This document shows positions 381 to 60,527 of a stretch of 64,000 nucleotides of DNA, piece after piece. The first letter of the stretch is position 1. The number at the start of each line of letters is the position of its first letter. The stretch is taken from NCBI GenBank assembly GCA_020152595.1, contig JAIGNY010000589.1, positions 1,146,001-1,210,000 on the forward strand, read 5' to 3'. The notes beneath the pieces are model-generated. The model was not told the origin of the DNA, searched no databases, and worked only from the letters and a program-made list of their open reading frames with translations. The translations under genes and the position numbers were made by a program. The stretch comes from Chiridota heheva (lineage: Eukaryota > Echinodermata > Holothuroidea > Apodida > Chiridotidae).

Positions 381-532
381 CTGCTCTGCTTGCAGCCTGC
401 TTTTGAATGTCTCTATGTGATGGTTAACTGCATTATACACAAATTTATACTGTGCCTCTGTCTGCACCAAACCTGACCTTTGACCTCTGACCAGCCTGAT
501 AGTGTTGCATATATCTATTTCACAGTCCAAAC
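381..532 (-). CDS. PTPN11-like: SHP2-like exon 13: Q-loop and end of PTP domain
   Basis: 152 nt, phase 1 in and phase 0 out. It reads [20 protein letters not shown], then [20 protein letters not shown], and ends RLQAEQ. QTEAQ holds the Q-loop glutamines that position water during phosphoenzyme hydrolysis. Acceptor TTGTTTAG/G, donor CAG/GTAATG. A 54-bp array starts about 25 bp beyond the donor and runs off the window, so the tail exons are not visible. Confidence 0.96.
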
Positions 533-9500: not shown

Positions 9501-12500
9501 TCCAGAAGTCACTTTGGTGAGGGGAGAAGATTCTGTTGGTCTCAAGGAACCAGTTAAGTCCCTGGTTGATGATCCTTTCCATAATTCTGCAGAGACAGCA
9601 GGTGAGGGCAATAAGACGGTAACTGGAGGGATCAGTGCTGTCCTTCACTGGTTTGAAAATTGGGGAGATGACAGCTGTCCTGCAGATAGGGGGAAAGGAG
9701 TGTGAGGACAAAATGTGGTTGAGGATGGTGAGTAGGGTAGCGCTGGTCTTGCTGGGGAGGTGTTTCAGGAACTAGTAGGGATGTTATCTGGGCCCTTGGA
9801 GTTGCAGCCAGCGTCGTTGATGGCTTGCTTTAATTCAGATAAGGTGAAAGGGGTGTTGTAGCTCTCGGTGTTGTCAGAGGAAAAAAAATTCTACAGATTT
9901 CGTCACAAACTTTTTTGGAATTGAAAGCATCAGAGTAAATGACCAAGGATGAGATGTTGCTGAAAAAGGCGGCAAGGCAGGTAGCGATATCACTTTTCTT
10001 GGTGAGTAGATTGTCATTTCAGAGAGATGGGAGATTTGACCACCCTGCCAAGCGCCACCCTGTCCCACGTGCCACCCTGTCCCACGTGCCACCCTGTCCC
10101 ACGTGCCACCCTGTCCCACGTGCCACCCGGTCCCACGTGCCACCCTGTCCCACGTGCCACCCTGTCCCAAAGCCATCCTGTCCCACGTGCCACCCTGTCC
10201 CACCCTGTCCCACGTGCACCCTGTCCCATGTGCCACCCTGTCCCACGTTCCACCCTGTCCCAAGTGCCACCCTGTCCCACGTGCCACCCTGTCCCACGTG
10301 CCACCCTGTCCCACGTGCCACCCTGTCCCACGTGCCATCCTGTCCCACGTGCCACCCTGTCCCACGTGCCACCCTGTCCCCAAGCCACCCTGTCCCACGT
10401 GCCGACCTGTCCCACATGCCACCCTGTCCCACGTGCCACCCTGTCCCACGTGCCACCCCTGTCCCACGTGCCACCCTGTCGCACGTGCCATCCTGTCCCA
10501 CGTGCCACCCTGTCCCACGTGCCACCCCTGTCCCACGTGCCACCCTGTCCCACGTGCCGACCTGTCCCACGTCACACCCTGTCCCACGTGCCACCCTGTC
10601 CCACGTGCCACCCTGTCCCACGTGCCACCCTGTCCCACGTGCCACCCTGTCCCACGTGCCGACCTGTCCCACGTACCACCCTGTCCCATGTGCCACCCTG
10701 TCCCACATGCCACCCTGTCCCAAGTGCCACCCTGTCCCAAGTGCCACCCTGTCCCACATGCTACCCTGTCCCACATGCCACCCTGACCCCCATGCCATTC
10801 TGTCCCACGTGCCACCCTGTCCCCTGTCCCACCCTGTCCCATGTGCCACCCTGTCCCAAGTTCCACCCTGTCCCAAGTGCCACCCTGTCCCCTGTCCCCC
10901 CTGTCCCATGTGCCACCCTGTCCCACGTGCCACCCTGTCCCACATGCCACCCTGTCCCCAGTGCCACCCTGTCCCGCATGCCACCCTGTCCGGCGTGCCA
11001 CCCTGTCCGCATGCCACCCTGTCCCGCGTGCCACCCTGTCCCGCTTTCCACCCTGTCCCGTGCCACCCTGTCCTGCATGCCACCCTGTCCCGCGTGCAAC
11101 ACTGTCCCGCATGCCACCCTGTCCCGCGTGCCACCCTGTCCCGCTGTGCCATCCTATCCCGCATGCCACCCTGTCCCGCGTGCCAACCTGTCCCGCATGC
11201 CACCTTGTCCCACGTGCCACCCTGTTCCACATGCCACCCTGTTCCACGTGCCACCCTCTCCCACGTGCCACCCTGTCCCATGTGCCACACTGTCCCATGT
11301 GCCACCCTGTCCCACATGCCATTCCAAACTGTTCCACATTTCATCCATCATGCTATTCATTTGCAAGACACTTCATTATAAATTCCATTCAGTCATCACA
11401 TCTATTATTAAACTTTTTTTTCATCCCAGAACAAATCCTTTAATTGCTGCTATTCAAGTCTAGAATGCATTTGTTCTCCTTTATACAAATTTCTTTTCAT
11501 AAAAATAGTTGGAAATCCTTTCCCAGGGCAGCAATATTTTGTTCCATAGTAGCTGAACAATGCATAATGTTGGACAAACGATACATGTGGACAGATGAAT
11601 GGACGGATGAACGGACGAATAAACAAACGGAGGAAGGGATGGTAAAGATGCTACATCCCCTCTTCACTAACTTTTTTGGCGAGGGGATAATAAAGATAGA
11701 CAAATACACATCATTTGGCCAAGATGCAAATTCGCAGAACCTATATGCCCCCTCAGCTTTCAGCTAGATAATTTCAGTGCTTGCAATCTACTTTTCTACT
11801 ACAGCGCCGCTAATCAGATATTTGAACACAAAAGATCTTTTTGTTAGCCAAATGACTTCACAGTGGCTATTACTCTGTGCTGATCCTGTGGCTGCTAATT
11901 TACATCAAGATGCATCCAGCGTTTGGCGCGACCAATTGATAGGCAAATGCAAGAATTGTGGAATACAGTCAAGCTTTGCGACACTGTCCATACTTCTTTT
12001 AGTACAGTAGTATGTTGCGCAATCAAGATTCCAGCTTAAAAGCCTTGTGTTTGATTTGTGTTACTTGTGATATATGATTACTAATGATTTCAAAGTTCCT
12101 ACTCTCTTCTGCTTCCTCTTCACCTTTTCATTGTGTATGACAAAATGAAAGTGTGCAAGGATTTGTCATCATTTCATGAATAAACAGAAACAAATAGTGT
12201 TCAAACTATGCTGTTCAATTCAACCAAGCGGTACATTAATAATGCTTTTACTTGTTTTAACGTAATGAATTGGTTTTGGAGAAACAAACTATGTCATGTA
12301 TCATGCAATGTACAAAATTGTTGATCTCAGAAATCTACCTTTCAGACCCCACTCCCCCCCTCCCCCCCTCCCTATTCCCACCTGTGGCTATACCAAGCCA
12401 TATTACCATGATCAATAACGTCTACAAGGAAAGAATGATTTGTGCCACACTCACAAAGTCTTCATGGTAGACAGAGAACTCTTTGAGGTCAAAGTCCTGC

Positions 12501-15500
12501 CCTCTGGATTCATCCGTGTGCATTACGGTAATCTTCCCATACGTTTCTGTGCCGTCATTACCTGAACGCACAGGCCAGTACTTGGCACACTTATTCTGTA
12601 AAAACAAAAGATTTTCAATTTTATTTAAAGCCATAGTAAGTCAGTTCATCCCTTCTGGAATGTAAACAAGAAAAACATATTTTGAAAACAGATAATGCGC
12701 CCTTCTTATGTACCCCTCTTGATTTTCCAAGAATAAACTACAAATTAGGTCAAAATAACAAGTCCTTGCATCATAATCATCCTTTCATCTTTACATCAGA
12801 TAGTGCATCCCCAAAATATATACTGTAACAAGGAGAAACAAATATCACACTTCAAACACAAATGCATCATTGTAAAAATAAAAAAGAGATAAGAAATGAC
12901 TAATTTACAATAATGTTTGGAGTAAATGGAAAAAACTGAAATGCAGGTCACAAATTTGAACCACATCAAGCATTTGCCTGGTTGAAGTATCTCCTTTAGT
13001 ATTTAGTTTGGATCAAGATTATTTGAAAAATAATGTTTATTACTTTGACCAAACAACTAATTGCTGTAAATTCTACCCACATAAATGCTAGTGTCCTAAC
13101 ATTTGAATCTGTTATTAGATATGAGATCGGGCTTTAACCTGGCCTATTAATCATAAAACAAAACACACAATGAAGATTTGTTTTAAAAACAAACGATAAT
13201 GATTTCATTGCAATGCGCTTTGATTATGTATCACTTGCATGGAAAAGTGCTATTTAAAAATGAGTTTGTTTGTTTGGTGAGAGTTTAACGGCACCACAAC
13301 AGCAATGGTCAGATTGTGCCTGAGAGATTAGATCATTCCAGAGGTAGGAAGGAGAGTAAACAGGGGGAGATTGAGAGAAACACGAGAACTAAAAGCCAGA
13401 AAGCTGGGATCGAGAGAGGAGGTGTATGGGTGGAAAAATAATGTAGAGAGAGAGGGGGTGAGGAAGGAGGACTAACTATGGTTGTAGAGGGAAGCATGAT
13501 AAAGGAAGGAGATAATTTTATCAGAGGGTTTTCCTGGAAGAGCTCGGTAACGAATTGTGGGCAGCGAGGGAAGCTCTGGGAAGGTTGTACGGGGGCAAGC
13601 GAGGAAAATGTGATGGACTGTGCAAGTACAATGGCAATTATCAATTTAGGAGTCCCATGAGGTTTGCCAGCGGCCACGAATAAGGTAAGTGATAAGTGGT
13701 TTGATGTCAGAAAGGGTTTTGGGAAAAGGGGTAGGGGGAAGGGTGAGGGCAAGCTTAGCAGCTGCATCAGCCCTGTCATTGCCTGGGATGCCAACATGGC
13801 TGGGTATCCAGGAGAAAAGAATATGTTTCCTATGGAGAGGGGGCGAAAGGAGTTTACGGAGGATGAGGTGAGATGTGGGGTTATCCCATTTAACATTGAG
13901 TAATGAAGTAAGGACAGCCTTGGAGACAGAGAAGATGGCAAAGTGGCTGAGAGGAGAGTATTCAATAAAGTTGAGGGCGAGGAGGATGGCCTTGGCCTCG
14001 ACCGAGAAGATGGATGAGTAGTCGGGAAGCCTGCCACTGAGGGTGATGTCTTGGATGATGGCAGCAGCAGCTGTCTTGTCGCCTTCCTTGGAGCCATAGT
14101 ATAGATGAAAGTATAATTTGAGAGTTTAAAAATGAGTATTGTTATATAACTATTTATAAGAGCATTGTATAATATACAAATCCACTGACCTTGCCCTGCA
14201 CACATGTCTAACTGCCCGTTACCACTATAACTCCTACGCTCACCTTTCAACCTGCCTAGCTCTCCTCGCCCTTCCATATCTTGCCAATTCCCCATCTCCC
14301 ATGCACCATATCATTGTCTACTTAACATTCTTCCCTCAAACTTCCAATACTTACCCCATAAAAACCTTTACCCCACCACACAGTCCCAATCACCATTAAT
14401 CACCGTCTCTCCCAAACTCACCTGAAAACCCTCCCCAATCCCTTCTGAACCCCCTCACCCTACCCACCACACCTAGTCTATTTACCTACCTTACCCAATT
14501 CACCTATCGTTTGTCAGACTAACACCTCTCACCTACCTATTACCTGCTATTCCCAGGCACCCACTATTCTCCATCCCTGTGAACCTGCCACCCTTACCCC
14601 ACTCTCACCCTTGTCTATTCACCTGCCATCTCCATGCATACTCCTTCCTTGCTTTTACCTTTATAATGTGCCCTGACCAATGATGCAGTAGGTTTCACTA
14701 TAGCAACCAATAAATATTCAAATTATTCTGATAGATGAAATAATATACACACCTTGCCTCTCTCCACCTCTTTGGTTGTCATGACGATAACCTTTGATTT
14801 CTCCTGCCAAACCATCCTCCAGAAGTCTTTGACGGTGTCCTTAAGGCATCCCTGTGTTGCTATGTAGCGCTTCTGGTGCTCCCAGCTCATGTCCATCTTC
14901 TCCACATTCTCCCCTGCTTGGTGAGCTTGCATGTTCGATTCCCACGCCTTGGCAAGCTGTAAATACAACAAATCCTAGCTGTTATAAAACAATGAACATT
15001 ATGCATATCAATGTGATTGCGCCTGTTAATGCAATTATGCATATTAATGGATATTAATGCAATTATGCATATTAATGCAATCATGCATATTAATGCAATT
15101 ATGCATATTAATGAAAATATGCATATTAATGCAAGTATGCATATTAATGCAATTATGTATATTCATGCAATTATGCATACTTATGCAATTATGTATATTA
15201 ATGCAATTAAGCATACTAATGCAATTAAGCATACTAATGCAATTATGCATACTAATGCAATTATGTATATCAATGCAAATATGCATATTAATGCAAATAT
15301 GCATAATAATGCAATTATGCATACCAGTTATCATCATAATGCAAACCAGTTATCATTATAATGCATACCAGTTATCATTATAATCATATCATTATAATGC
15401 ATACCAGTTATCATTATAATGCATACCAGTTATCATTATAATGCATACCAGTTATCATTATAATGCATACCAGTTATCATTATAATGCATACCAGTTATC

Positions 15501-18500
15501 ATTATAATGCATACCAGTTATCATCTTAATGCACACCAGTTATCATTATAATGCATACCAGTTATCATCATAATGCATACCAGTTATCATTATAATATAT
15601 ACCAGTTATCATTATAATGCACATCAGTTATCATTATAATGCATACCAGTTATCATTATAATGCATACCAATTATCATCATAATGCATACCAGATATCAT
15701 TATGATGCACACCAGTTATCATTATAATGCATACCAATTATCATCGTAATGCATACCAATTATCATTATAATGCACACCAGGTATCATTATAATGCACAC
15801 CAGTTATCATTATAATGCATACCAGTTATCACTATAATGCATACCAGTTATCATTATAATGCATACCTGTTATCATCATAATGCATACCAGTTATCATTA
15901 TAATGTACACCAGTTATCATTATAATGCAAACCAGTTATCATTATAATGCATAATAGTTATCATTATGCATACCCCAATATGTAAGTACAGAATAATGTA
16001 TTTCTTTATAATTCTTCATAAACTTTTCTATTTAGGTACGCTTTGACATGAAGTTCTAAAGGCTTGTATCAGTAAATATCATGTACAAACAAAATGTCAG
16101 AGAGCTATGCAAAGGAAAAATTATTTTTTGTAGGATAGAAAATACATTAAATTTTCATCAGGAACTGGGTTGATTATGTCATCTTAAGAAGTCAGTGTGA
16201 AGAAAATCGCTACTCCTATGTAAATTTATCTTGACAGAATCAATGCTACAATAAATTGACAAATTTAGATTGTTTTGAAAGATATGGGCAAATAAAATTA
16301 TATAATTTTTAATTTTTGTTTCCATCATAAAAAAAAGAAGGAAAAAGCCAGACTTGATGTCTCCTTTAACCCTTACTCTACCACGCGGTGAAATTATTGC
16401 TGTTTTGGGTGCCCCATCTTTGACCCCGCCTCCCAAGTGAGTTTCAAAAAGGTGCTAGTGGAGTAAGATTTAATTAGCCGGCTACAAGTTTTCCAACTCA
16501 AAAATATATGCAGCATGGTCCCGGTGGGCGGCCCACTGGGTTACTGAGGCAGAACGAGCCCGACTCTGCTGCTCAGAAGACACAGGACCCTTCAATAATC
16601 AGCCTGTGCTTAACCCCTACTCTACCATGCAGCGATATTATCGCCGTTTTGGGTGCCCCATCTTTGACCCCGCCTCCCAAGCGCGTTTTCAAAAAAGTGC
16701 AGGTAGAGTAAGGGTTAATATTTTTCTTAATAATTTACAAATATCCAAATCAAATGTAATTGGCAGGAAATAATTAAACCAGTTTAATCTTGTCTTAAGC
16801 AAAATATAATGCATGGGTTTAACAACTCTCTTTGCAGTGTAGCACTACCATCCTGTGCAACATGCTTTCCTTTCATGAAATGGGGAAAATGGCCTTGAAA
16901 TGTGACGGAACAAAATTTCAAATATGTCAAATAAAGGTCTCAAATGTCACATCCTTTTGCAGAGAATGTCACGTCGGTTTTTCCTTTTGTCACCTTTGAT
17001 TTCTTTCACGAAAAATGGAATCCACCACTAAAATGCAACATCAAATTACCAATGAGTGTGAGTAAAGGGGTAAAACATGTCACAAAATGTCAGACAAATA
17101 TTAATACATCTGTTTATGTTCAATTTGTCACATTTTGTCACAAAGTTTTTAAAATATCACAAAATGTCACAAATTTTTGGACGATGAATTTTTGTCACAA
17201 AATGTCACAGACGCTCCATTCTCTGTAACTGGTACAGGCATTCAAGGGTGTAATTCTCCTACAAAGAGAGGAGGGGGGGGGGGACATGTGGCTATAGTTT
17301 TCCTCCACAAAGTGCAGGGACAGTGCTTTTCATAACTATAATTGGTGCCAGCAATGATGTAGTTTGCGTTAATATAATAGAGTATACGCATGTCACACAC
17401 ACTCGACAACTTACATGTAGCTACCGGAATTAAGGGCTTAAATCAGTTTAACTCGCCAAAATTTGCAGCGTTATTAATCATAGAACTTCAAGTCATGCAT
17501 ATATGCATGACGTCCGCATTGACAACAGTATATCTCCGAAGAATTCCGAAAATGAATAAAGGAATGTCTATTGTGTACTTGACATCGTGCTAACAAAAAA
17601 AAAAAATTACATGCAGAGGTTCTGGTTCTTATCTATTATACTTGTGTTGTTAGTAAAATCAGTAAGTATGGTTAATACAAGAAATATGAATGTAAAACTG
17701 ACTTATCATGTGGGATAGTATAACAATGCAAAACGCATCATACATATAATATGGCCACACACATCATGTGAAAGCATTTCCTGGTTATCATTAGGAACTC
17801 AACGAGCCCCTTTGTGCAAGTGATAGGCTTATCTGCCTATCCTCCAAGTGCTAGGATATAACTGTAAACACACTCGGGGGTTTTCGGAGGTTTTGTTGAG
17901 TAACTTTCTGGTACTACTAATCCTCATTACGTCGCGGATTTCAGCTAGTAAAACTGAAATAAGCCCTAGGTTTTTATGTAATGCTCACTGTACACAAATT
18001 AAGCATGTGAAAAATAAACAGATAAGTAATCAAAAACAAAATAAAAATGCAAAATAACAAGAAATGAATGTTTTTCATTTTAGCAATGTTCAGTTTTGAT
18101 ATAAAAGATGCCAACACATGGAGGCAAACCAAGAGCATATTTTGCTGTGCAATCTTCATTTGTTTACTATTTTGCTGTGCTTTCTTTGTTTGTATACTAT
18201 TCCTTGACCAGTAATTGAGCATATTTTGCTGTGAGCTCTTTGTTTGTATACTATTCCTTGACCAGTGATTGAGCATATTTTGCTGTGTGCTCTTTGTTTA
18301 CTATTCCTTGACCAGTGATTGAGCATATTTTGCTGTGAGCTCTTTGTTTGTTTACTATTCCTTGACCAGTGATTGAGCATATTTTGCTGTGTGCTCTTTG
18401 TTTGTGTACTATTCCTTGATCAGTGATTGAGCATATTTTGCTGTGTGCTCTTTGTATACTATTCCTTGACCAGTGATTGAGCATATTTTGCTGTGTGCTC

Positions 18501-21500
18501 TTTGTTTGTGTACTATTCCTTGATCAGTGATTGAGCATATTTTGCTGTGTGCTCTTTGTATACTATTCCTTGACCAGTGATTGAGCATATTTTGCTGTGT
18601 GCTCTTTGTTTGTGTACTATTCCTTGATCAGTGATTGAGCATATTTTGCTGTGTGCTCTTTGTATACTATTCCTTGACCAGTGATTGAGCATATTTTGCT
18701 GTGCTCTTTGTTTGTATACTATTCCTTGACCAGTGATTGAGCATATTTTGCTGTGTGCTCTTTGTATACTATTCCTTGACCAGTGATTGAGCATATTTTG
18801 CTGTGCATTCTTTGTTTGTATACTATTCCTTGACCAGTGATTGAGCATATTTTGCTGTGTGCTCTTTGTTTGTGTACTATTCCTTGACCAGTGATTGAGC
18901 ATATTTTGCTGTGCTCTTTGTTTGTGTACTATTCCTTGACCAGTGATTGAGCATATTTTGCTGTGTGCTCTTTGTTTGTATACTATTCCTTGACCAGTGA
19001 TTGAGCATATTTTGCTGTGCTCTTTGTTTGTATACTATTCCTTGACCAGTGATTGAGCATATTTTGCTGTGCTCTTTGTTTGTATACTATTCCTTGACCA
19101 GTGATTGAGCATATTTTGCTGTGCATTTTTTGTTTGTATACTATTCCTTGACCAGTGATTGAGCATATTTTGCTGTGAGCTCTTTGTTTGTTTACTATTC
19201 CTTGACCAGTGATTGAGCATATTTTGCTGTGAGCTCTTTGTTTGTTTACTATTCCTTGACCAGTGATTGAGCATATTTTGCTGTGTGCTCTTTGTTTGTA
19301 TACTATTCCTTGACCAGTGATTGAGCATATTTTGCTGTGCTCTTTGTTTGTATACTATTCCTTGACCAGTGATTGAGCATATTTTGCTGTGCTCTTTGTT
19401 TGTATACTATTCCTTGATCAGTGATTGAGCATATTTTGCTGTGCTCTTTGTATACTATTCCTTGACCAGTGATTGAGCATATTTTGCTGTGAGCTCTTTG
19501 TTTGTTTACTATTCCTTGACCAGTGATTGAGCATATTTTGCTGTGAGCTCTTTGTTTGTTTACTATTCCTTGACCAGTGATTGAGCATATTTTGCTGTGC
19601 ATTCTTTGTTTGTATACTATTCCTTGATCAGTGATTGAGCATATTTTGCTGTGTGCTCTTTGTGTACTATTCCTTGACCAGTGATTGAGCATATTTTGCT
19701 GTGAGCTCTTTGTTTGTTTACTATTCCTTGACCAGTGATTGAGCATATTTTGCTGTGCACTCTTTATTTGTTTACTATTCCTTGACCAGTGATTGAGCAT
19801 ATTTTACAGTGCACTCTTTATTTGTTTACTATTCCTTGACCAGTGATTGAGCATATTTTGCTGTGAGCTCTTTGTTTATGTACTATTCCTTGATCAGTGA
19901 TTGAGCATATTTTGACCAGTGACTTGAAGAGCATATTTTGTTGTGCTCTTTGTGATTCCTTGCAGTGATTCATATTTTTTCTTTGTTTACTATTCCTTGA
20001 CCAGTGATTGAGCATATTTTGCTGTGAGCTCTTTGTTTGTTTACTATTCCTTGACCAGTGATTGAGCATATTTTGCTGTGCATTCTTTGTTTGTATACTA
20101 TTCCTTGATCAGTGATTGAGCATATTTTGCTGTGTGCTTTGTGTACTATTCCTTGACCAGTGATTGAGCATATTTTGCTGTGTGCTCTTTGTATACTATT
20201 CCTTGACCAGTGATTGAGCATATTTTGCTGTGCATTCTTTGTTTGTTTACTTTTTCTTGACCAGTGATTGAGCATATTTTACAGTGCACTCTTTATTTGT
20301 TTACTATTCCTTGACCAGTGATTGAGCATATTTTGCTGTGAGCTCTTTGTTTATGTACTATTCCTTGATCAGTGATTGAGCATATTTTACGGTGCGCTCT
20401 TTGTTTACTATTCCTTGACCAGTGATTGAGCATATTTGCTGTGCTCTTTGTTTGTTTACTATTCCTTGACCAGTGACTGGATGAAGAGCGTATTTTGCTG
20501 AGAGCTCTTTGTCTGTTTACTATTCCTTGACCAGTGATTGAGCATATTTCACTGTGAGCTCTTTGTTTGTTTACTATTCCTTGACCAGTGACTGGATGAA
20601 GAGCGTACTTTGCTGTGTGCTATTTGTTTGTTTACTATTCCTTGACCAGTGACTGGATGAGGAGCATATTTTGCTGTGCTCTTTGTTTGTTTACTATTCC
20701 TTGACCAGTGACTGGATGAAGAGCATATTTTGCTGTGCTCTTTGTTTGTTTACTATTCCTTGACCAGTGACTGGATGAAGAGCATATTTTGCTGTGTGCT
20801 CTTTGTTTGTTTACTATTCCTTGACCAGTGACTGGAGGATTTCCTGCACCATGCAAGTCAATGCACATACTCTATTGGTGTAAAGGTGATACTACTTACA
20901 TAGATGCAGTTTGCATTAATATAACTGGTGAAGGCATTGATACTACTTATATCAATGTAGTTTGTATTTACATAAATAGTGAAGGCATTGTGATACTACT
21001 TACATCGATGTAGTTTGCATTAACATAATCATCCCCTTCCTCTTCTCCGTCTAATAGCATAACTCGACTGTGGTCAACTGCAGAAAAATGAAAATAATTT
21101 CAATCAATTACAAAATGTCTGCATCAGCAAGGGTAGTGTTTGGGCTTTGGTTGAATGTAAAATTTCTAAAAGAAAAGGAAGTTGGTGCTATGTCCAAGGT
21201 TCTATTCTTTGCCTACAACATACACACATATCTTAGCATTGCTTGCCATACTCACATGGTAAGATGTTCTTGTATCTATTCTTATTCTTGTTGATGTTAT
21301 GACCAAGGTTTTATTCTTTGCATACAATGTACATGCATATCTAAGCATTGCTTGCCATACTCACATGGTAAGATGTTCTTGTATCTATTCTTGTTAATGT
21401 TAATATTATGACCAAGGTTCTATTCTTTGCCTACATCGTACACGGATACTTAAGCATTGCCTGCCATACTCACATGGTAAGATGTTCTTGTATCTATTCT

Positions 21501-24500
21501 TGTTAATGTTAATATTATGACCAAGGTTCTATTCTTTGCCTACATCGTACACGGATACTTAAGCATTGCTTGCCATACTCACATGGTAAGATGTTCTTGT
21601 ATCTATTCTTATTTTTGTTGATATTATGACCAAGGTTCTATTCTTTGCCTACAACATACATGCATATCTAAACAATGCTTGCCATACTCACATGGTAAGA
21701 TGTTTTTGTATCTATTCTTATTCTTGTTGATTGGTTTATTCCCCTCTTCTCTCGGATACAGGTGTTTGCTGTCTTGTTGTTGTAGTGACTGTGAATAGAA
21801 ACAAATGTTAAATTATACAACATGACAACCACAAGTCAACATACCATCACATTAACACAACATTTGCAGAATATTGCACAAGAAAAAAATCAACAAATAT
21901 AGCAGATTAAATGTACAAGACAATACTATACATTATTATACAAAACTATATCACATGTACTACAAAACATTGTGCAACATTATATCACATGTATATACAG
22001 AAAGGATAGTACATCACACAAGCTATACATATTTATCACATATATACAGAAAGGATAGTATATTACATAAGATATACATATTTATCACATGTATATACAG
22101 AAAGGATAGTGCATCACATAAGATATACATATTTATCACATATATATACAGAAAGGATAGTACATCACATAAGATATACATATTTATCCCACATATACAG
22201 ATAGGATCGTACATCACATAAGATATACATATTTATCACATATATACAGAAAGGATCGTACATCACATAAGATATACATATTTATCACATATACACAGAA
22301 AGGATCGTACATCACACAAGATATACATATCTGACCTTGTGAAAGTATGCAAATTTGAAAGTGAAGAAAAGCCATAAGAACTGATAAGAATCAACAGCCA
22401 TGTATGAGATATTAATTTCCTGGGAGATGGAAGTCTATTGTTAACTTACCTCAAACTCCTCCTCAAACCCATCCTTCTTGTTCTTGTCGTTATCTTTCTT
22501 GAGGGCCTCGACACGGCTCTGGATGCCAGACGCTGCTATCCTGGTGGCGTTGTAGGGCTGTAAGGGAATGAAATACATTAGCTTAAGTATATATTAAAAA
22601 AATAAAACCGTGAGCTTAGAAGGCCTTACCACCAATAGGCATGGTCCTACATAGTCCACTGAATCCTTAACCACATCTTACACTCGTATTTAATAATAGC
22701 GAGAATTCACTTCCATTGGCCACATTGTACATGGTCTGATATCATAGCCTAACATTCTTGAATTTGTGGGCCTTTTTGATGTAGTATGTAAAGAACTATA
22801 GCATGTAACCAATTATAGCATGTAAATAAACAATTATAGCATGTAAATAATTATAGCATGTAAACAATTATAGCATGTAAACAATTATAGAAAGCCGCAA
22901 AATTCATCTTGTCAATTATTAACACTTTTTCTTCTAATAAGCCCAAGAACAGTACTGAGAAGGTTTGCATATCATCATAAACTTGTAATTTCATTTTAGA
23001 TTGTTAAAACTTTTTCTTCTGAATATCACAAAAAACTTACTGAGAAATAGTGCTGTTAATGATTAGCGATTAATCGCTAATCGCTCGCAACTCTTCAACA
23101 AGTCAAGTTAAACTTTAGACTGATTAATCGCGAACATGCTATGTGGGTTACCTTGTGTACAAAAACCATACCCAGAAATATGAATTCCACTAATTGTTGG
23201 CGCACTTCTAAAACAATACTGGCTTTCTGGGTGAGAGCATTTGCATATCATTATAAACTTGAAATTTCATTTTAAATTGTTAACACTTTTTTTTTTTTAA
23301 TATCACAAGAAGGGTGTAAATAAATTATTGTGTAACAGCTCTGTCATATACCAGGAAAGTGACACTTCAGCAGTGCAAATAAGCTTCCAACATCGGCAAC
23401 ATTTTCTTCTGATATCTTATTTTTACACCTGTTTAAAGTTCACGTATACATTGTTCACTTTAAACATATACATTGTTCACAAACACTTTCTGTTGCTAAT
23501 AATTATAATCATTGTCTTTACAAAGTCTTTTTTGTTATTTAACCCAGGATCTTTATTTTCAACTAGCTTTATCAGCCTAATAGTTAATTTTAAGGCATGA
23601 TATTTGCATTTTGGTGAGATTCTTTGCCTATTGGTTTTCCAAAAAAGCATAGTGTAATTGTGTGGGAACTGTACCAGTTCCACAAAAGTTTCATTACTTT
23701 TATTGAAAACTTAGAAGTTTGTTCTTTTTTCCTGATGTTTAAATAAAGCTTTGTTGCGAGTAATCACAAAACGCTCACAATTTTTGGCAATTAAATGATT
23801 AGTGAATTAATCACAAATCCACAGCACTACTGAGAGCATTTGCATATCATTATAAACTTGAAATTTCATTTTAAATTGTTAACACTTTTTTTTTTTAATA
23901 TCACAAGAAGGGTACTAACAAGTTTGCATATTATCATACAATATAGTCATGAAACCAATGTTTATTCACACAATAAAAAAGATACATGAACAAGTTTGAC
24001 AAAGTGGGGCAATCACCTGTTTTAAATGCACCACATATCCTGTACTCTCAACCATAGGGTTCTTCCTGTAGTGTTCAACCAGCTCAGTCAGGGTGTCAAA
24101 TTGCTCTCCTCCACCAATATTGTACCTGTTGTCCTGTTGGCAGAATACACAAATGATGAAAATATGTAAATTTCTTTATAAAATGAATATTCACATGATG
24201 AAAATATGTATATTTTTTGTCAATGTATATTCACACCAGCTCAGTCAGGGTGTCAAATTGCTCTCCTCCACCAATATTGTACCTGTTGACCTGTTGGCAG
24301 AATACACAAATGATGAAAATATGTAAATTCTTTGTAAAATGAATATTCACATGATGAAAATATGTATATTCTTTGTCAATGCATATTCACACCAGCTCAG
24401 TCAAGGTGTCAAATTGCTCTCCTCCACCTATATTGTACCTGTTGTCCTGTTGGCAGAATACACAAATGATGAAAATATGTAAATTCTTTGTAAAATGAAT

Positions 24501-27500
24501 ATTCACATGATGAAAATATGTATATTCTTTGTCAATGCATATTCACACCAGCTCAGTCAAGGTGTCAAATTGCTCTCCTCCACCTATATTGTACCTGTTG
24601 TCCTGTTGGCAGAATACACAAATGATGAAAATATGTAAATTCTTTGTAAAATGAATATTCACATGATGAAAATATGTATATTCTTTGTCAATGCATATTC
24701 ACACCAGCTCAGTCAAGGTGTCAAATTGCTCTCCTCCACCAATATTGTACCTGTTGTCCTGTTGGCAGAATACACAAATGATGAAAATATGTAAATTCTT
24801 TGTAAAATGAATATTCACATGATGAAAATATGTATATTCTTTGTCAATGCATATTCACACCAGCTCAGTCAGGGTATCAAATTGCTCTCCTCCACCGATA
24901 TTGTACCTGTTGTCCTGTTGGCAGAATACACAAATGATGAAAATATGTAAATTTCTTTAAAAAATGAATATTCACATGATGAAAATATGTATATTTTTTG
25001 TCAATGTATATTCACACCAGCTCAGTCAGGGTGTCAAATTGCTCTCCTCCACCAATATTGTACCTGTTGTCCTGTTGTCAGAATACACAAATGATGAAAA
25101 TATGTAAATTCTTTGTTCAATGAATATTCACATGATGAAAATATGTATATTCTTTGTCAATGCATATTCACACCTGCTCAGTCAGGATGTCAAATTGCTC
25201 TCCTCCACCGATATTGTACCTGTTGTCCTGTTGTCAGAATACACAAATGATGAAAATATGTAAATTCTTTGTTCAATGAATATTCACATGATGAAAATAT
25301 GTATATTCTTTGTCAATGCATATTCACACCAGCTCAGTCAAGGTGTCAAATTGCTCTCCTCCACCAATATTGTACCTGTTGTCCTGTTGGCAGAATACAA
25401 AAATGATGAATATATGTAAATTCTTTGTAAAATGAATATTCACATGATGAAAATATGTATATTTTTTTGTCAATGCATATTCACACCAGCTCAGTCAGGA
25501 TGTCGAATTGCTCTCCTCCACCAATATTGTACCTGTTGTCCTGTTGGCAGAATACACAAATGATGAATATATGTAAATTCTTTGTAAAATGAATATTCAC
25601 ATGATGAAAATATGTATATTCTTTGTTAATGCATATTCACACCAGCTCAGTCAGGGTGTCAAATTGCTCTCCTCCACCTATATTGTACCTGTTGTCCTGA
25701 TGGCAGAATACACAAATGATGAATATATGTAAATTCTTTGTAAAATGAATATTCACATGATGAAAATATGTATATTCTTTGTCAATGCATATTCACACCA
25801 GCTCAGTCAGGGTGTCAAATTGCTCTCCTCCACCAATATTGTACCTGTTGTCCTGATGGCAGAATACACAAACGATGAAAATATGTAACTCTTTGTAAAA
25901 TGAATATTCACATGATAAAAATATGTATATTCTTTGTCAATGCATATTCACACCAGCTCAGTCAGGGTGTCAAATTGCTCTCCTCCACCAATATTGTACC
26001 TGTTGTCCTGTTGGCAGAATACACAAATGATGAAAATATGTAAATTCTTTATAAAATGAATATTCACATGATGAAAATATGTATATTCTTTGTCAATGCA
26101 TATTCACACCTGCTCAGTCAGGGTGTCAAATTGCTCTCCTCCACCGATAGTGTACCTGTTGTCCTGTTGGCAGAATACAAAAATGATGAATATATGTAAA
26201 TTCTTTGTAAAATGAATATTCACATGATGAAAATATGTATATTCTTTGTCAATGCATATTCACACCAGCTCAGTCAAGGTGTCAAATTGCTCTCCTCCAC
26301 CAATATTGTACCTGTTGTCCTGTTGGCAGAATACACAAATGATGAAAATATGTAAATTCTTTGGCAATGCATATTCACACCAGCTCAGTCAGGGTGTCAA
26401 ATTGCTCACCTCCACCAATAATGTACCTGTTGTCGTGTTGTCAGAATTAATACACAAATGATGAAAATATGTAAACTCTATGTAAAATGAATATTCATAT
26501 GATGAAAATATGTATATTCTTTCTCAATGCATATTCACACCAGCTCAGTCAAGGTGTCAAATTGCTCTCCTCCACCAATATTGTACCTGTTGTCCTGTTG
26601 GCAGAATACACAAATGATGAAAATATGTATATTCTTTGTCAATGCATATTCACACCAGCTCAGAAAAGAGGTCAAATTGCTCCTCGCCACCTATATTGTA
26701 CCTGTTGTCTTGTTGGCAGAATACACACTCCAGTAAACACTGTAGTCCGTTATCATAATATAGAGTATATCATGGTGTTAAGGCAACGAATGGTACAATT
26801 CAACGAACCATTCTACAATCTTAGACAAACCTTATTGGAATGCTTTGTGAAATTTTGTAATGCTTTTAAAAAAATTCCTAACTAAACTATATTATTCAAC
26901 ATTCATACCACTCTTTATTAGTGGTTATTTGATCTGATATTCTAAACTAGTATTGCTTTTATTCTTAGGACATTTGCATAATTTGCTTTACTTCCTCAGG
27001 GCCCCTCCTACCTTAATATCTTATCGCCTCCCCTCCCTGCCTCACTCCAATCAACAGTGACCATTCTTAATAGGTTTTTTTTTCCAAACAAGGCTTAAAA
27101 AAAGCACAATCAAATCCAACATTGGAATGTGTGAGGGGGAGGGGGAAGAATTAAAAATTGAGGAGAAGATGGTGAAGTCGTCCACGTAGAGAGTACGATT
27201 GATGTTGAGGCCAAGGTTGTCCACAATGTCCTTAATGCTCAGGTTGAAGAAAGTGGGGGAGAGGATGCCGCCCTGGGGGACGCCCTTTTCTTGGGGGTAC
27301 GGGTTGGAAAGGGTGTGGCCAATACGAACTTGGAACTTCCTGGGTGAGAGGAAGTTTTGAATAAAGATGGGGAGGTGGCCTCTGGGGCCTCTGGTGTAAA
27401 GTTTGTGAATAATGCCGTATTTCCAAGTAGTGTCCAAAGCTTTCTCTACGTCGAAAAAGATGGCAATGAGGTGTTCCTTTTTTGCAAAGGATTCTCGGAT

Positions 27501-30500
27501 AGCAGTGTCGAGCGTAATTGACTGGTCTAGGCTACTGCGACGTTTCCGGAAGCCGCTTTGGTGAGGGGAGTTGAATCTGTTGGTCTCAACAAACCAGTTT
27601 AGTCTCTGGTTAATGATCCTTTCCATAAGTTTACAGAGACAGCAGGTGAGGGAGATGGGGCGGTAGCTGGAAGGGTTGGTACTGTCTTTCACCGGTTTAG
27701 GGATGGGGGTGACAATAGCTGTCCTCCAGATAGGGGGATAGGAGTGTGAGGACTAAATGTTGTTGGGAAGGTGTTTCAGGAACTGGTAGGGGATGTTATC
27801 TGGGCCCTTGGAGGTGCAGCCAGCATTGTGGATGGCTTGGTTTAATTCAGAAAGGGTGAGAGGGGTGTTGTAGCTTTCGAAGTTGTCGGAAGGAAAGGAG
27901 GTACTCCGGGCTTCATCGCAATCTTTGTTGGTTTTGAAAGCATTGGGGTAGTTGGCGGAGGACGAGATATTGCTGAAAGAGGCGGCAAGGTGGTTACCTG
28001 TGTCCTTTTTTGCGGTAAGAAGGTTACCATTCTAGGGGAAATGGGAGATGGGAGACTTGCCCACCCTGCCATGGAAGCTGTTAACCATTCTCCAAATCTT
28101 CTTAGTGGAGGTGTTGATGGTTAGAGAGGAGATGAAGTTGTTCTAAGTGCTGGTTTTACTGTCCTTGATAGTGCGCCTGGCCTTGGCACGGCTGATGCGA
28201 AAGAGGTTGAGGTTGTGGGAAGTCGGGTTAGTTTTAAAGTTCCTGAGGGCCCTTTTCCTGTTCTTGATGGCGGTTTCAAATAGTAAAGCAAAGACATAAG
28301 AGATCAACTTCAACATAAGAGAACAAATATTGGTGTTGTGCCCAATGTGTCTCTTCAATGCTTTATTTACAACTGAATCTCAGATTACATATATGCATGT
28401 CCTCTATCCCAATCTGTAGATAGAATAAGTGAGCCAAAAACAACAAAGAAGAGTAAAAGGGACAATTCATATTTGGTAAGGGGCACTTGTCAAATGGGGA
28501 CACATTCCTGCCATACACGGAATCAACAATAGTCTGCAGTTTCCTACTATTGGGTCAGTAATTAAGGGGTACTTCATTTTGAAAGGGGCACTTTTGTAAT
28601 ATTTTTGTAAAACGTTTGTGCACATCCTACCAGTTCTTGCACCTTTGACAGTAATTGAGGAGCACTTTTGTGTGTGGGGGGGGGGGGAGGGGGGGACATG
28701 TGCCCCTCGGTTGCTACACTTGTGCCTCTGGTTGCTATACCTATGCTTACCTGATGTTTAATCATGACATGCGTCACTTTGTTTTCTGGTCTGTTTTCAG
28801 TTCTCACTGATAGGACATAATCTCCAGGATTACTTTGACTCTCACGAACCAGGAAGCTGCCGCTTTTGGCTTTCTCCTTCACTTTATCTTTGGTTAACAC
28901 CTTCTCTGCCTCTTTGCCCGTTATGTGTCCATGAAACCATCTACAGGGAGGAAGTAACCAAAGGGTTAACAACAGATGGGGGGTCCTGAAATACAGAGTG
29001 GTGTTGATATGGGGAATCCTGATATACAGTGGTGTTGACATGGGGATCCTGATATACAGTGGTGTTGACATGGGGATCCTGATATACAGAGTGGTGTTGA
29101 TATGGGGATCCTGACATAAAGAGTGGTGTTGATATGGGTGGTCCTGACATACATAGTGGTGTTAATATGGGGGATCCTAACATACAGAGTGGTGTTGATA
29201 TGAGGGATCCTGATATACAGAGTGGTGTTAATATGGGGACCCTGACATACAGAGTGGTGTTGACATGGGGACCCTGACATACAGAGTGATGTTAATATGG
29301 GTGGTCCTGACATACAGAGTGGTGTTAATATGGGGATCCTGATATACAGAGTGGTGTTGATATGGGGATCCTGACATACAGAGTGATGTTGATATGGGGA
29401 CCCTGACATACAGAGTGGTGTTGATATGGGGATCCTGATAAACAGAGTGGTGTTAATATGGGGATCCTGACATACAGAGTGGTGTTGATATGGGGATCCT
29501 GATATACAGAGTGGTGTTGATATGGGGATCCTGATAAACAGAGTGGTGTTGACATGGGGACCCTGACATACAGTGTGGTGTTAATATGGGGACCCTAATA
29601 TACAGAGTGGTGTTAATATAAGCCCTAATATACAGAGTGGTGTTGACATGGGGGACTTTGACATACAGTGTGGTGTTAATATGGGGACCCTGATATACAG
29701 AGTGGTGTTGATATGGGGATCCTGATATACAGAGTGGTGTAAATATGGGGGATCCTAACATACAGGGTGGTATTGACATGGGGAATCCTGACATACAGAG
29801 TGGTGTTAATATGGGGATCCTGATATACAGAGTGGTGTTGATATGGGGATCCTGACATACAGAGTGATGTTGATATGGGGACCCTGACATACAGAGTGGT
29901 GTTGATATGGGGATCCTGATAAACAGAGTGGTGTTAATATGGGGATCCTGACATACAGAGTGGTGTTGATATGGGGATCCTGATATACAGAGTGGTGTTG
30001 ATATGGGGATCCTGATAAACAGAGTGGTGTTGACATGGGGACCCTGACATACAGTGTGGTGTTAATATGGGGACCCTAATATACAGAGTGGTGTTAATAT
30101 AAGCCCTAATATACAGAGTGGTGTTGACATGGGGGACTTTGACATACAGTGTGGTGTTAATATGGGGACCCTGATATACAGAGTGGTGTTGATATGGGGA
30201 TCCTGATATACAGAGTGGTGTAAATATGGGGGATCCTAACATACAGGGTGGTATTGACATGGGGAATTCTGACATACAGAGTGGTGTTAATATGGGGGAT
30301 CCTAACATACAGAGTAATGTTGATATGGGTATCCTGATATACAGAGTGGTGTTAATATGGGGATCCTGACATACAGAGCATTACCAACTTATCATGCTAA
30401 TGCTTTTACCTCACAAGTCCCGACTGTTTACTACATTCTGGTCAGGAGATTATATTTCCAATCCCGATATACAATATCCTTTTCTTAAATCAGTAACACA

Positions 30501-33500
30501 AAACCACAACTGCTACAGTGACAGGTCATACACAAAGCCACAGTGTTATGTGAATTGACCACTTATCAACTTATCCTGCTGCATACATGGAGCTTTTGTG
30601 TAAAAAGTGCACTCAAGCAAAGTGAGGGTGAGATTGTGCTGAATAAGGCCTATTCATGCAGATTATTTGCAACTAAATCTTCAGTGGATTTGAGGGTTTC
30701 ATTTTTAATATTTTCATGAGAAGGGATTGGAAGACCAGTTTTTAATAGCTTTGGAAGTTCATCATGGTGGTGTTGACATGGGGGATCCTGACATACAGAG
30801 TGGTCTTAACATGGGGATCCTGACATACAGAATGGTGTTAATATGGGGACCATGACATACAGAGTGGTGTTGAGATGAGGATCCTGACATACAGAGTTGT
30901 GTTAATATGGGGACCCTGACATAAAGAGTAGTGTTGATATGGATGGTACTGACATACAGAGTAGTGTTGATATGGGGAATCCTGACATATAGTGTGGTGT
31001 TAATATGGGAAAGTCTGACATATAGTGTGGTGTTAATATGGGGGATCCTGACATAAAGAGTGGTGTTGATATTGGGTGGTCCTGACATACAGAGTGGTGT
31101 TGACATGGGGAATCCTGACATATAGTGTGGTGTTAATATGGGGGATCCTGACATAAAGAGTTGTGTTGATATGGATGGTACGGACATACAGAGTAGTGTT
31201 GATATGGGGAATCCTGACATATAGTGTGGTGTTAATATGGGGAATCCTGACATATAGTGTGGTGGTAATATGGGGGATCCTGACATAAAGAGTGGTGTTA
31301 ATATTGGGTGGTCCTGACATACAGCGTGTTGTTGACATGGGGAATCCTGACATATAGTGTGGTGTTGACATGGGGACTCAGACATACAGCATGGTGTTGA
31401 TATGGGAGATCCTGACATACAGAGCGGTGTTGACATGGAGACCCTGGCAATCTAAGTGATGTTAGCATGGGGATCCTAAAAGACAGTGTGGTGTTGACAT
31501 GGAGACCCTGATATACAGAGCAGTGTTGACATGGAGACCCTGACATACAGAGCAGTGTTGACATGGAGACCCTGATATACAGAGCGGTGTTGACATGGAG
31601 ACCTGACATACAGAGCGGTGTTGACATGGAGACCCTGATATACAGAGCGGTGTTGACATGGAGACCCTGACATACAGAGCGGTGTTGACATGGAGACCCT
31701 GACAGTCTAAGTGATGTTAGCATGGGGATCCTGATATACAGTGTGGTGTTGACATGGAGACCCTGACAGTCTAAGTGATGTTAGCATGGGGATCCTGATA
31801 TACAGTGTGGTGTTGACATGGAGACCCTGACATTCTAAGTGATGTTAGCATGGGGCTCCTGACATACAGTGTGGTGTTGACATGCATGACATAATTTGCT
31901 ATGATCTACTGCAAGTACTAAAACATTTAGTTAATGTCATGATTGCTGAAAGTAAATTAATTAACATTATAATTGCATCAAGCACTGAAACATACTGACA
32001 TTAATTATGTTATAACTGCTGCAAGTATTGATACATACAGACATTTATTCATTGTCCTGATACCCGTACAAATAAAATACAGGGATGCATCCCACTCCCA
32101 ATATCTTTCAAGCGTCATTTCCTCTCAAGGAAATAGAAATGAAAAGTGGTGGGTGTACAACAAGTTTCATGGACTATATGGAGTTTGAGATGCCCAATTA
32201 AAGTAACATAAATGATGGTGATAAAAACAGATGTGTCAAGTTTCTTTCAGTTCACTAATTTGATTAACAACAGTATGTGTACATAGGAAATATGTGCACA
32301 TAGAAAATATGTGTACATAGGAAATATGTGTACATAGGAAATATGTGTACATAGGAAATAGGTGTACATAGGAAATATGTGTACATAGGAAATATGTGTA
32401 GATACAGTAGGAAATATGTGTACATAGGAAATACTGTATGTGGGAGTCACATTCTAACTGAGGTGGTTATTTTACATCCCTTTTTCAATTACAGCTAAAG
32501 CTATATAAAGGTGTTTGATGGTTGTAAAGCACCGATAAATAAAGACCCATTAAGTAATTTCAAATCCCAAAACTAAAATTCATTTTACTTCACAAAATGT
32601 CATCAAATGACATTTAATGTGCAGCTTGATCCATTGTATTTCTATTTATGTTGTCATTTCTGTATTCTTATTTTTGTTTTCGTATCTAATTTCCTTGTAT
32701 GTAAAGCGCTTTTGCATGTTTTTACAAAATTAGCGCTATATAAATTTATGTAGTATTATTATTATTTTTAATATATCTCAATTCTGTCAGCCTTTTTGCC
32801 TGTTCAAAACCCACATATATTTGAGCTTGTTCCGAATTGTGATAAAATAATAATGAAGTTGACTAATTTAATGACTTGACTAATCATTAGTTGTTATATG
32901 CTCCTTCAAGTTTCAAACAGTCAGACCTGACCTGATACATATAAGCAGGTCGTGTCAGACTTTTCCCCTTTATTTTCTTTATATTGAAAACCACAAGCAA
33001 TTATGATCAAATTTTCCTTATCAATGGCTCCATTGTACTAGTTCTCCTATTGGTCCTGGGTTGTTGTGGAAGTTGGTGTTAAGTATCAAATTAGCAATAG
33101 ATGGAGTCCTGATTGTGTGGTTGAATGGTTATTTTACGTAAGATAAGTGGTCTCATTATTTGCTTCAGTAAGTTTAAGGCTATGATTTGCTGGAACAAAT
33201 TTTTAAGGAGAAGGACAAGTCATGATTTTATGAGTTGACTTTATTAGTTTGTGGAACTTTTGGGATTATTATTTCACCACCTCTGCAAAAATGTTGATTT
33301 TCTCCAATTGAAAAGGTTTTTACTTCCAGGCACTAAAGAAAACTGCAAATTGAGTGGGTACATTAGCTGGTCCTGTCCTTAAAAAAATAAACACTCAGAC
33401 CTGATGTCAAAGTTAAGCAGATCGGGCCAGACATTTCCCTATCAAGTTTCTATCTTTTTCCTTATTTTGAAACCACAAGCAATTAAGCTCAGGTTCCACT

Positions 33501-36500
33501 CGCTGATAATATTTCAGACACCAGTTACTCAAATTTCACCCACGTGTCCAAAGACAATTGCACACAGTAAATACAGTTCATAAAAGTTCACACAGTAGTT
33601 GTAACTAGGTCTGGCAATAAGGGAACCATTGTTTTCTTTGATAACCCTAACTGACCTTTTAATTAAGCAAGGTGTTTCATTACATGCATGCCATATGAAC
33701 TGTCAATCATTTAGCAAGAGGTTTATTTTAGAAAGGATAAGTGCTTATATTAGTCACAATATTTAGGTTTGTGGTTTGGACTGGCTGGAACAGAATTTTA
33801 AGGAGAGCCACAGCTAATGATAAATACCATGCCACATGATTAACAGATTGCAGGTACTGTATGTCAGGGTCCCCATGTCAACACCACTCTGTATGTCACA
33901 TATATGACTGTTTTGCACTATAAATGATTGGGTCAATCACTATATCAAATAATGACTCTAGGAATAAATGTAACATTTATGTCATCTTTTCAAAACAATA
34001 TTATATTGCCTTTGTAGTTTCTTAAGATTAGAAATAAAGCAAAAAACTAAATTATCAATTTGAAGTTTTAATCACTTGTATAATAAATTTGATTACAAAA
34101 TGGTCTGAAAATCAAAAAGACAACATTTTGTACCATTACTCACAAGAATAACTTGCATGTTAGTAAGAAAATTTCACAATTTGAAGAAACAAAAATCGCA
34201 GTTGTTCAACCATGAGCATTTCAAAATGTTTACATTTAGTCCCGCCTACTACTTAATATGCATGACATCACTACCAAAAGAAAAAGCAAAGAACTATTGA
34301 CTCTGAGATATCTGAAACTGTGTACCATATATGACATCAATCCAATGTATTGTCTTGGCATACTGTGTTTACAAGCTCTTTTGGCAGAACAACATTTAGC
34401 CCGGTCCACTTTGCATACTGTACTAATCAATAATGTCAACATTTTCATACCATGAACATGTACACAGTACTAAGCTAACAACATAAAACAACATAAGTAT
34501 ACCAAACATAAACTAAAACAGAATATTCAGTCCATGTTTGAGTACTGCATTTCAAGATAATCTATGTTGAAATTCACATCAATATCACAAATTTCTGTTG
34601 TAAAAAAATTTGAGCACGAAATTATTTTGTTGTACTTGGTCAATCATCTACTGTTTTTCATGAATTTGTTTCATACCTTTCATTTGTAGGGTCCGCCAAA
34701 TTGATGGGCACTCTTTATACCTTTCATTTGTATAATCTGCTGAATTGAGGGGGCACTCAAGGAGGTATTTAAGCAGTCCTTTATCCCTACATACCTTTCA
34801 TTTGTATAATCTGCTGAATTGAGGGGGCACTCAAGGAGGTATTTCAGCAGTCCTTTATCCCTACATACCTTTCATTTGTAGGGTCTGCCAAATTGAGGGG
34901 GCACACAAGGAGGTATTTAAGCAGTCCTTTATCCCTACATACAGTACGTTTCATTTGTATAATCTGCTGAATTGAGGGGGCACTCAATGAGGTATTTAAG
35001 CAGTCCTTTATCCCTACATACCTTTCATTTGTAGGGTCTGCCAAATTGAGGGGGCACTCAAGCAGGTATTTAAGCAATCCATTATCCCTACATACCTTTC
35101 ATTTGTAGGGTCTGCCAAATTGAGGGGGCTCACAAGGAGGTATTTAAGCAGTCCTTTATCCCTACATACAGTACGTTTCATTTGTATGGTCTGCCGAATT
35201 GAGGGGGCACTCAAGGAGGTATTTAAGCAATCCTTTATCCCTACATACCTTTCATTTGTATAATCTGCCGAATTGAGAGGCACTCAAGGAGGTATTTAAG
35301 CAATCATTTATCCCTACATATTTTTCATTTGTATGGTCTGCTGAATTAAGGGGGCACTAAAGGAGGTATATAAGCAGTCCTTTATCCCTACATACAGTAC
35401 GTTTCATTTGTTTGGTCTGCCGAATTGAGGGGGCACTCAATGAGGTATTTAAGCAGTCCTTTATCCCCACATATCTTTCATTTGTAGGGTCTGCCAAATT
35501 GAGTGGGCACTCAAGCAGGTATTTAAGCAATCCTTTATCCCTACATACAGTACCTTTCATTTGTTTGGTCTGCCGAATTGAGGGGGCACTCAATGAGGTA
35601 TTTAAGCAGTCCTTTATACCTACATACCTTTCATTTGTAGGGTCTGCCAAATTGAGGGGGCACTCAAGCAGGTATTTAAGCAATCCTTTATCCCTACATA
35701 CAGTACCTTTTATTTGTATGGTCTGCCGAATTGAGGGGGCACTCAAGGAGGTATTTAAGCAATCATTTATCCCTACATACCTTTCATTTGTATAATCTGC
35801 CGAATTGAGGGGGCACTCAAGGAGGTATTTAAGCAATCCTTTATCCCTACATATTTTTCATTTGTATGGTCTGCTGAATTAAGGGGGCACTAAAGGAGGT
35901 ATTAAAGCAGTCCTTTATCCCTACATACAGTACGTTTCATTTGTTTGGTCTGCCGAAATGAGGGGGCACTCAAGGAGGTATTTAAGCAATCATTTATCCC
36001 TACATACCTTTCATTTGTTTGGTCTGCCGAATTGAGGGGGCACTCAATAAGGCGTTTAAGCAGTCCTTTATCCCTACATACCTTTCGTTTGTAGGGTCTG
36101 CCGAATTAAGGGGGCACTCAATAAGGCATTTAAGCAGTCCTTTATCCCTATATACCTTTCTTTTGTAGGGTCTGCCGAATTGAGGGGGCACTCAAGGAGG
36201 TATTTAAGCAGTCCTTTATCCCTACATACCTTTTATTTGTATGGTCTGCCAAATTGAGGGGGCACTCAAGGAGGTATTTAAGCAGTCCTTTATCCCTACA
36301 TACCTTTCATTTGTATGGTCTGCCGAATTGAGGGGGCACTCAAGGAGGTATTTAGCAGTCATTTATCCCTGCATATCTTTCATTTGTAGAGTCTGCTGAG
36401 TTGAGAGGCACATCAGGGGGCACTAGAGCAATCCCTACATACCTTTCATTTGTAGGGTCTGCTGAGTTGAAGGGGTAATTTAGGAGGTGGAAGGGGTACT

Positions 36501-59615: not shown

Positions 59616-59966
59616 AAGCACAAACACGAACAATTTACAAAGGTAGATTCTTTAAAATAGCCGGCAAATCTATTGATCTTCGATTACATGTGTACACTCG
59701 TGTCAATCATACACTTGGTTTAATGCCATTCTCCTGTTATTCAACCATTTTGAGTGAAATTTTGTCAAAAACCATAATTTGTTTCTACTTTTGAGGAACA
59801 ATTTGTTTTGATAAGTAGCCTACCAGGTTTTTGAACATCCTAATAGTAATCTAATTTTTGTAACATTTGGAGGTTGTATAGGAAAGCCAGAGTCACTTGA
59901 AAAAAACTTTGAGATCATCGGTAACTTTGCACAGAGAAGTCAATGAAGATTTCCCTGTCTTAGCTA
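59616..59966. other. Short gap, no gene
   Basis: Unique-looking sequence before the AT tract. Confidence 0.5.

Positions 59967-60527
<561 letters not shown>

Follow-up and report, generated by a model that had tools for sequence, protein, structure and literature searches.

Introduction

Tandem copies of exon/intron boundaries have been described in the amphioxus Adh3, globin, troponin C (TnC) and PGBD5 genes, where they were named mirages and are said to leave regular splicing undisturbed (PMC3087553 among the sources). In the globin gene BflGb6, the repeated unit of 150-160 bp joins the 3' end of an intron to the 5' part of an exon; RT-PCR results are reported that suggest regular splicing, and units at the cluster boundary escape homogenisation (PMC3087553). 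Boundary repeats have also been linked to altered splicing in human segmental duplications, in which internal tandem repeats at exon-intron boundaries are reported to change splicing and to be able to create new introns (PMC2812944). At the earthworm metallothionein locus, large intronic minisatellites are described together with extra exon-4 copies that are absent from transcripts, different clones being involved (PMC12783039).

Here we describe arrays of exon edges in an SHP2/PTPN11-type gene of the holothuroid Chiridota heheva, contained in a stretch of 64,000 nucleotides that we refer to as the window. These arrays appear to be a large instance of the phenomenon already named mirage in amphioxus, and they may extend it to another animal. 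No match to COX1 or GFP was obtained from this genome; the empty GFP search hints against amphioxus, although its controls gave no signal. The array at exon 5 resembles that of BflGb6 in combining an intron 3' end with an exon 5' part, but it lies in an SHP2 rather than a globin gene and holds 17 decoy junctions, whereas 6 and 3 units are given for two BflGb6 haplotypes. The mirages of Adh3, BflGb9, TnC and PGBD5 share with SHP2 the copying of boundaries, which in BflGb9 also affects an exon 3' boundary; the SHP2 gene differs in having four arrayed edges with up to 34 decoys. Human boundary minisatellites occupy the same position as the SHP2 arrays, but they average ~30-bp units in ~4 copies over the whole set, and the splicing changes and new introns reported for them, in recently duplicated genes, are unlike what a mirage reading implies for SHP2. 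The earthworm case, with two exon-4 duplications of which one is inverted, is not described as an edge array.

An SHP2-type gene with four arrayed exon edges

The gene and its arrays comprise the following features, given as positions in the window and all on the minus strand.

381..45427, minus strand: SHP2/PTPN11-type gene, coding exons E2-E13 (exon calls, frame and co-linearity with human SHP2)
37187..37381, minus strand: true exon 3 (exon call)
34673..37227, minus strand: exon-3 donor-edge array, 34 decoys downstream of the true donor, in several TRF rows with a gap at 36476-36515 (TRF and sequence)
28751..28940, minus strand: exon 4; splicing from its donor would need to bypass the E5 decoys (exon call)
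24074..26727, minus strand: acceptor-edge array, 17 decoys that each join the exon-5 acceptor to 54 nt from the start of exon 5; the true edge forms the last unit (TRF and junction search)
24017..24133, minus strand: true exon 5, 117 nt, phase 0-0, coding for part of the C-SH2 domain (exon call and alignment)
21692..21788, minus strand: true exon 7 (exon call)
21189..21731, minus strand: exon-7 donor-edge array, 109-bp unit, 4 decoys, GTGAGT in 4/4 (TRF and sequence)
21004..21077, minus strand: true exon 8 (exon call)
20886..21028, minus strand: exon-8 donor-edge array, ~52-bp unit, 2 decoys, GT in 1/2 (TRF and sequence)

All 12 coding exons, E2-E13, are preceded by AG and followed by GT, and together they form a single open frame of 553 residues in which a domain search finds SH2 (in two stretches) and then a tyrosine phosphatase domain. 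The frame is co-linear with human SHP2 and aligns from one end to the other with PDB chains of human PTPN11, which gives the gene the layout of SHP2/PTPN11, two SH2 domains and then a tyrosine phosphatase domain in co-linear order. A preliminary description, made from the letters alone, had noted that the gene looks intact and had placed the exon 4 donor at 28751; both statements agree with our exon calls. The coding parts at the two ends of the gene were not located; a human SHP2 query of the 20 kb flanking the window on either side (5 kb of it unsequenced) returned nothing convincing.

Four of the 24 exon edges are arrayed, namely the E5 acceptor and the E3, E7 and E8 donors, with 57 decoy junctions in total, every one in the sense orientation; the remaining 20 edges have no second junction copy at the threshold used for E5. 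The arrays show the two features by which a mirage can be recognised: a tandem unit that spans an exon/intron boundary, and retention of the AG or GT in many but not all copies (15/17 at E5, 29/34 at E3, where the count includes the unit at 36612, 4/4 at E7 and 1/2 at E8). We consider it probable that they are mirages, meaning intronic minisatellites in which the repeat unit has by chance taken in an exon edge. Such arrays would originate through the usual processes of tandem duplication and unequal exchange, and those that swallow an edge would persist because splicing would keep picking the true site.

A comparable but unrelated array was found in a kinase gene.

L024 1-712: acceptor-edge array, 96-bp unit, 7 decoys

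Its repeat comprises the acceptor and ~4 exon bases, with AG in 6/7 decoys and the exon start placed by the reading frame. It was the only acceptor-edge array at 40 kinase exons hand-picked from 134 scored genome matches, mostly short open frames, a frequency that is a rough lower bound, with match ends only approximating exon ends. Two further candidates in this sample were rejected as edge copies: the weak self-matches of L032 are A/T-rich low complexity, and L052 offers one 20-mer at 3 mismatches.

The exon-5 acceptor array

At exon 5, TRF reports a 156-bp array at 24074-26379, which continues irregularly to 26727. A 30-base query across the acceptor, with up to 7 mismatches allowed, matched the sense strand 18 times (17 decoys and the true junction) and the antisense strand not at all, while 30 shuffled queries gave a mean of 0.00 matches, which rules out chance as the source of the copies. 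The search bears out the preliminary description in its main points, that about 17 tandem copies of the acceptor and the first 18 codons of exon 5 are present and that in sense order about 17 decoy acceptors come before the true exon. Other points needed adjustment. The 156-bp unit holds for 14 of 17 intervals, which measure 155-157 bp, but three intervals at the far end depart from it (115, 160 and 115). The acceptor motif CCAACAG, thought to be kept in every unit, is exact in 11/17 decoys, with AG lost in two; likewise, 19 codons followed by TGA occur in 17/17, but the exact 19-residue peptide in only 11/17. The array had also been said to have grown out of an exon edge and not intron DNA: the repeat does take in the exon edge, but the unit consists of ~102 nt of intron and 54 nt of exon (18 codons), so that about two thirds of it is intron.

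The outermost copy is the most diverged in its exon part, with 45/54 positions identical against 51-54 in the others, a common feature of terminal minisatellite units. This bears on the possibility that the repeat number was inflated, or the array misplaced, during assembly. The E5 repeat number comes from a single assembly, nearly identical units in tandem are difficult to assemble, and units U15 and U16 do not differ at all; nevertheless, most units differ from one another, the outermost most of all, and the same pattern recurs in four arrays and in L024, so that we find an artefact hard to credit. When the 1.1-Gb assembly (3744 contigs) was searched with a piece of the array, in a search that scored just the best candidates, 9/9 of the matches listed fell at the E5 locus.

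A function for the array as a splicing regulator, for instance as an acceptor decoy that delays removal of intron 4, would fit the AG kept in 15/17 copies and the ~2.6 kb of decoys transcribed ahead of the true acceptor. We nevertheless judge selection for such a role very unlikely, given that donors have eroded at E3, where the array is more diverged (GT in 29/34, GTATGT in 18/34), and that exon edges are not enriched for arrays.

Donor-like sites in the decoys and the proposed choice of the true exon

Units of the exon-5 array meet at the duplication joint GAGCTG/GTGTGAAT, where the slash marks the boundary. In 17/17 decoys the 54-nt exon part is followed directly by a GT, as CTG/GTGTGA in 15 and CAG/GTGTGA in 2. 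It had been proposed that the decoys are ignored for want of a paired donor, a proposal that finds no support here: on a donor weight matrix, the in-register sites score 5.9 (CTG/GTGTGA) and 7.9 (CAG/GTGTGA, two units), within the range of the 12 true donors (5.4-11.7; 8.5 for E5) and above one of them, that of E10. Decoys devoid of a donor are thereby ruled out, and, because the GT is present in all 17, a missing donor alone cannot account for the skipping of the decoys, if they are skipped. The usable-looking decoy donor, with its score above that of E10, would also make exon definition less clear-cut as an explanation.

Local sequence at the acceptor does not explain site choice either, because 9/17 decoys match the true site at every position between -22 and -1, and 1/17 does so between -22 and +54; most also resemble it in pyrimidine content (0.56-0.75 vs 0.69) and in branch-like motifs. 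What the true exon 5 alone possesses is the remaining 63 nt of the exon, with a GGAAGAAC purine stretch, followed by the donor CAG/GTGATT. We therefore propose that the true exon would win mainly through exon definition, by virtue of these 63 nt and the higher-scoring donor, whereas a decoy could provide no more than a 54-nt mini-exon and a lower-scoring donor. If the decoys are indeed skipped, their lack of the 63 nt and the higher-scoring true donor would be the likelier cues.

The consequences of decoy use would depend on the GT. If it is used, the TGA falls in the intron and the mini-exon adds 18 in-frame codons; if no donor is used, reading stops at the TGA. Misuse of a decoy would thus be expected either to end translation early or to insert 18 codons without shifting the frame. 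Since the 54-nt frame is stop-free in all 17 units and the phase is 0-0, any number of mini-exons would keep the frame, and it is conceivable that the decoys are in fact used, either as frame-neutral cassette mini-exons that lengthen C-SH2 or as poison exons that lower SHP2 output. The stop-free frame with its terminal GT in 17/17 units points in this direction, and human boundary minisatellites are reported to alter splicing (PMC2812944). Against it stand the loss of AG in 2/17 decoys, the low score of the decoy donor on the weight matrix and the likelihood that an 18-residue duplication within an SH2 domain would break it. We regard such use as improbable, a judgement on which the coding bias described below also bears.

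Under the mirage interpretation, in which the decoys are ignored, the locus would be a natural test of how the spliceosome chooses among sites, with 17 upstream acceptors between exons 4 and 5 and 34 downstream donors at exon 3. The E5 decoys, with their matching GTs and preserved frame, allow the need for a donor to be separated from other cues of exon definition.

A synonymous bias in the decoys

Pooled over the four arrays and read in the true frame, the distinct differences between decoys and exons comprise 25 synonymous and 27 nonsynonymous changes, against 13.0 synonymous expected (P 0.0002, with the transition bias fixed at 2 and all 17 E5 decoys counted), although the pooled differences are partly interdependent and some sites may reflect change in the exon and not in the copies. 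The wrong frames show no bias, with 8/49 synonymous (13.0 expected) and 9/51 (11.0 expected). This synonymous bias is, in our view, a new result. By array, the ratio of synonymous to nonsynonymous differences is 9 to 8 at E5, 10 to 13 at E3, 4 to 2 at E7 and 2 to 4 at E8, the last without a clear synonymous excess; E5 alone, minus its outermost unit, gives 6 to 5, with P between 0.010 and 0.074 according to the transition bias assumed. A coding bias among exon-part variants is what used cassette or poison exons might leave, but donor-side arrays, which are unable to be such exons, are among the sources of the pooled excess (E7, 4 to 2; E3, 10 to 13).

Two further comparisons gave no significant difference. 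Variants shared among copies show no significant synonymous surplus over single ones (P 0.30), and at E5 the frequency of variable sites does not differ significantly between the exon part (11/54, 17 units) and the last 48 intron bases (14/48, 15 units after two indel units were dropped; P 0.36).

These statistics suggest that the copies retain a coding footprint because the exon edge seeds the array or exchanges with it; either exchange or seeding, the latter if repeated, would be enough to leave such a mark. Two intron variants limited, among U02-U18, to U13 and to the true-exon unit U18 suggest an exchange involving the exon-adjacent unit. This reading is weak, because in substitutions over the whole unit it is U06 (2) that lies nearest to U18, with U13, U02 and U04 at 3. 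It is tempting, if speculative, to go further and regard the exon edge as one unit of a living minisatellite with two-way exchange, in which selection on SHP2 marks the decoys and the array can feed variants to the exon; we hold this to be possible but doubtful. The locus further illustrates how minisatellites within introns could give rise to new exons or introns.

Minisatellite abundance and the placement of arrays

Arrays, defined by a score >=100 and a period >=15, occupy ~43% of the intron sequence from E2 to E13. When they were slid against the exons by rotation, edges fell inside arrays less often in the observed arrangement (4/24) than on average (8.95; P(<=obs) 0.052), and the outcome was similar at score 200 (4 vs 8.75, P 0.064) and score 400 (3 vs 8.57, P 0.018), a deficit that is partly built in, with arrays overlapping just 166 of 1660 exon bases. 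The idea that exon edges attract arrays is rejected by this comparison. Because intron cover is so high and edges lie in arrays below random placement, the pattern looks like a general birth of minisatellites that sometimes catches an exon edge, with abundant birth filtered by selection at exons. Minisatellites make up ~38% of the window, above each of 13 sampled 10-kb stretches elsewhere, in which they cover 2-36% with a mean of ~16% (four adjoin the window and one is half unsequenced). Arrays are thus common wherever this genome was sampled.

Several other repeats lie within the window. At 28979-31884, ~90 copies of a 32-bp repeat with CAGGATCCCC end ~40 bases before the exon-4 acceptor, the edge itself being excluded. 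A 54-bp repeat at 1-356 begins ~25 bases past the exon-13 donor, and its units contain donor-like GTAAATG/GTAAGTG but no exon sequence. A TA dinucleotide run of ~560 bases extends over 59965-60527. Finally, two RVT_1 pieces and a weak RNase H match, all intronic, are located at 27054-27752, 9190-9771 and 13649-14125 on the minus strand, and are probably degraded retrotransposons.
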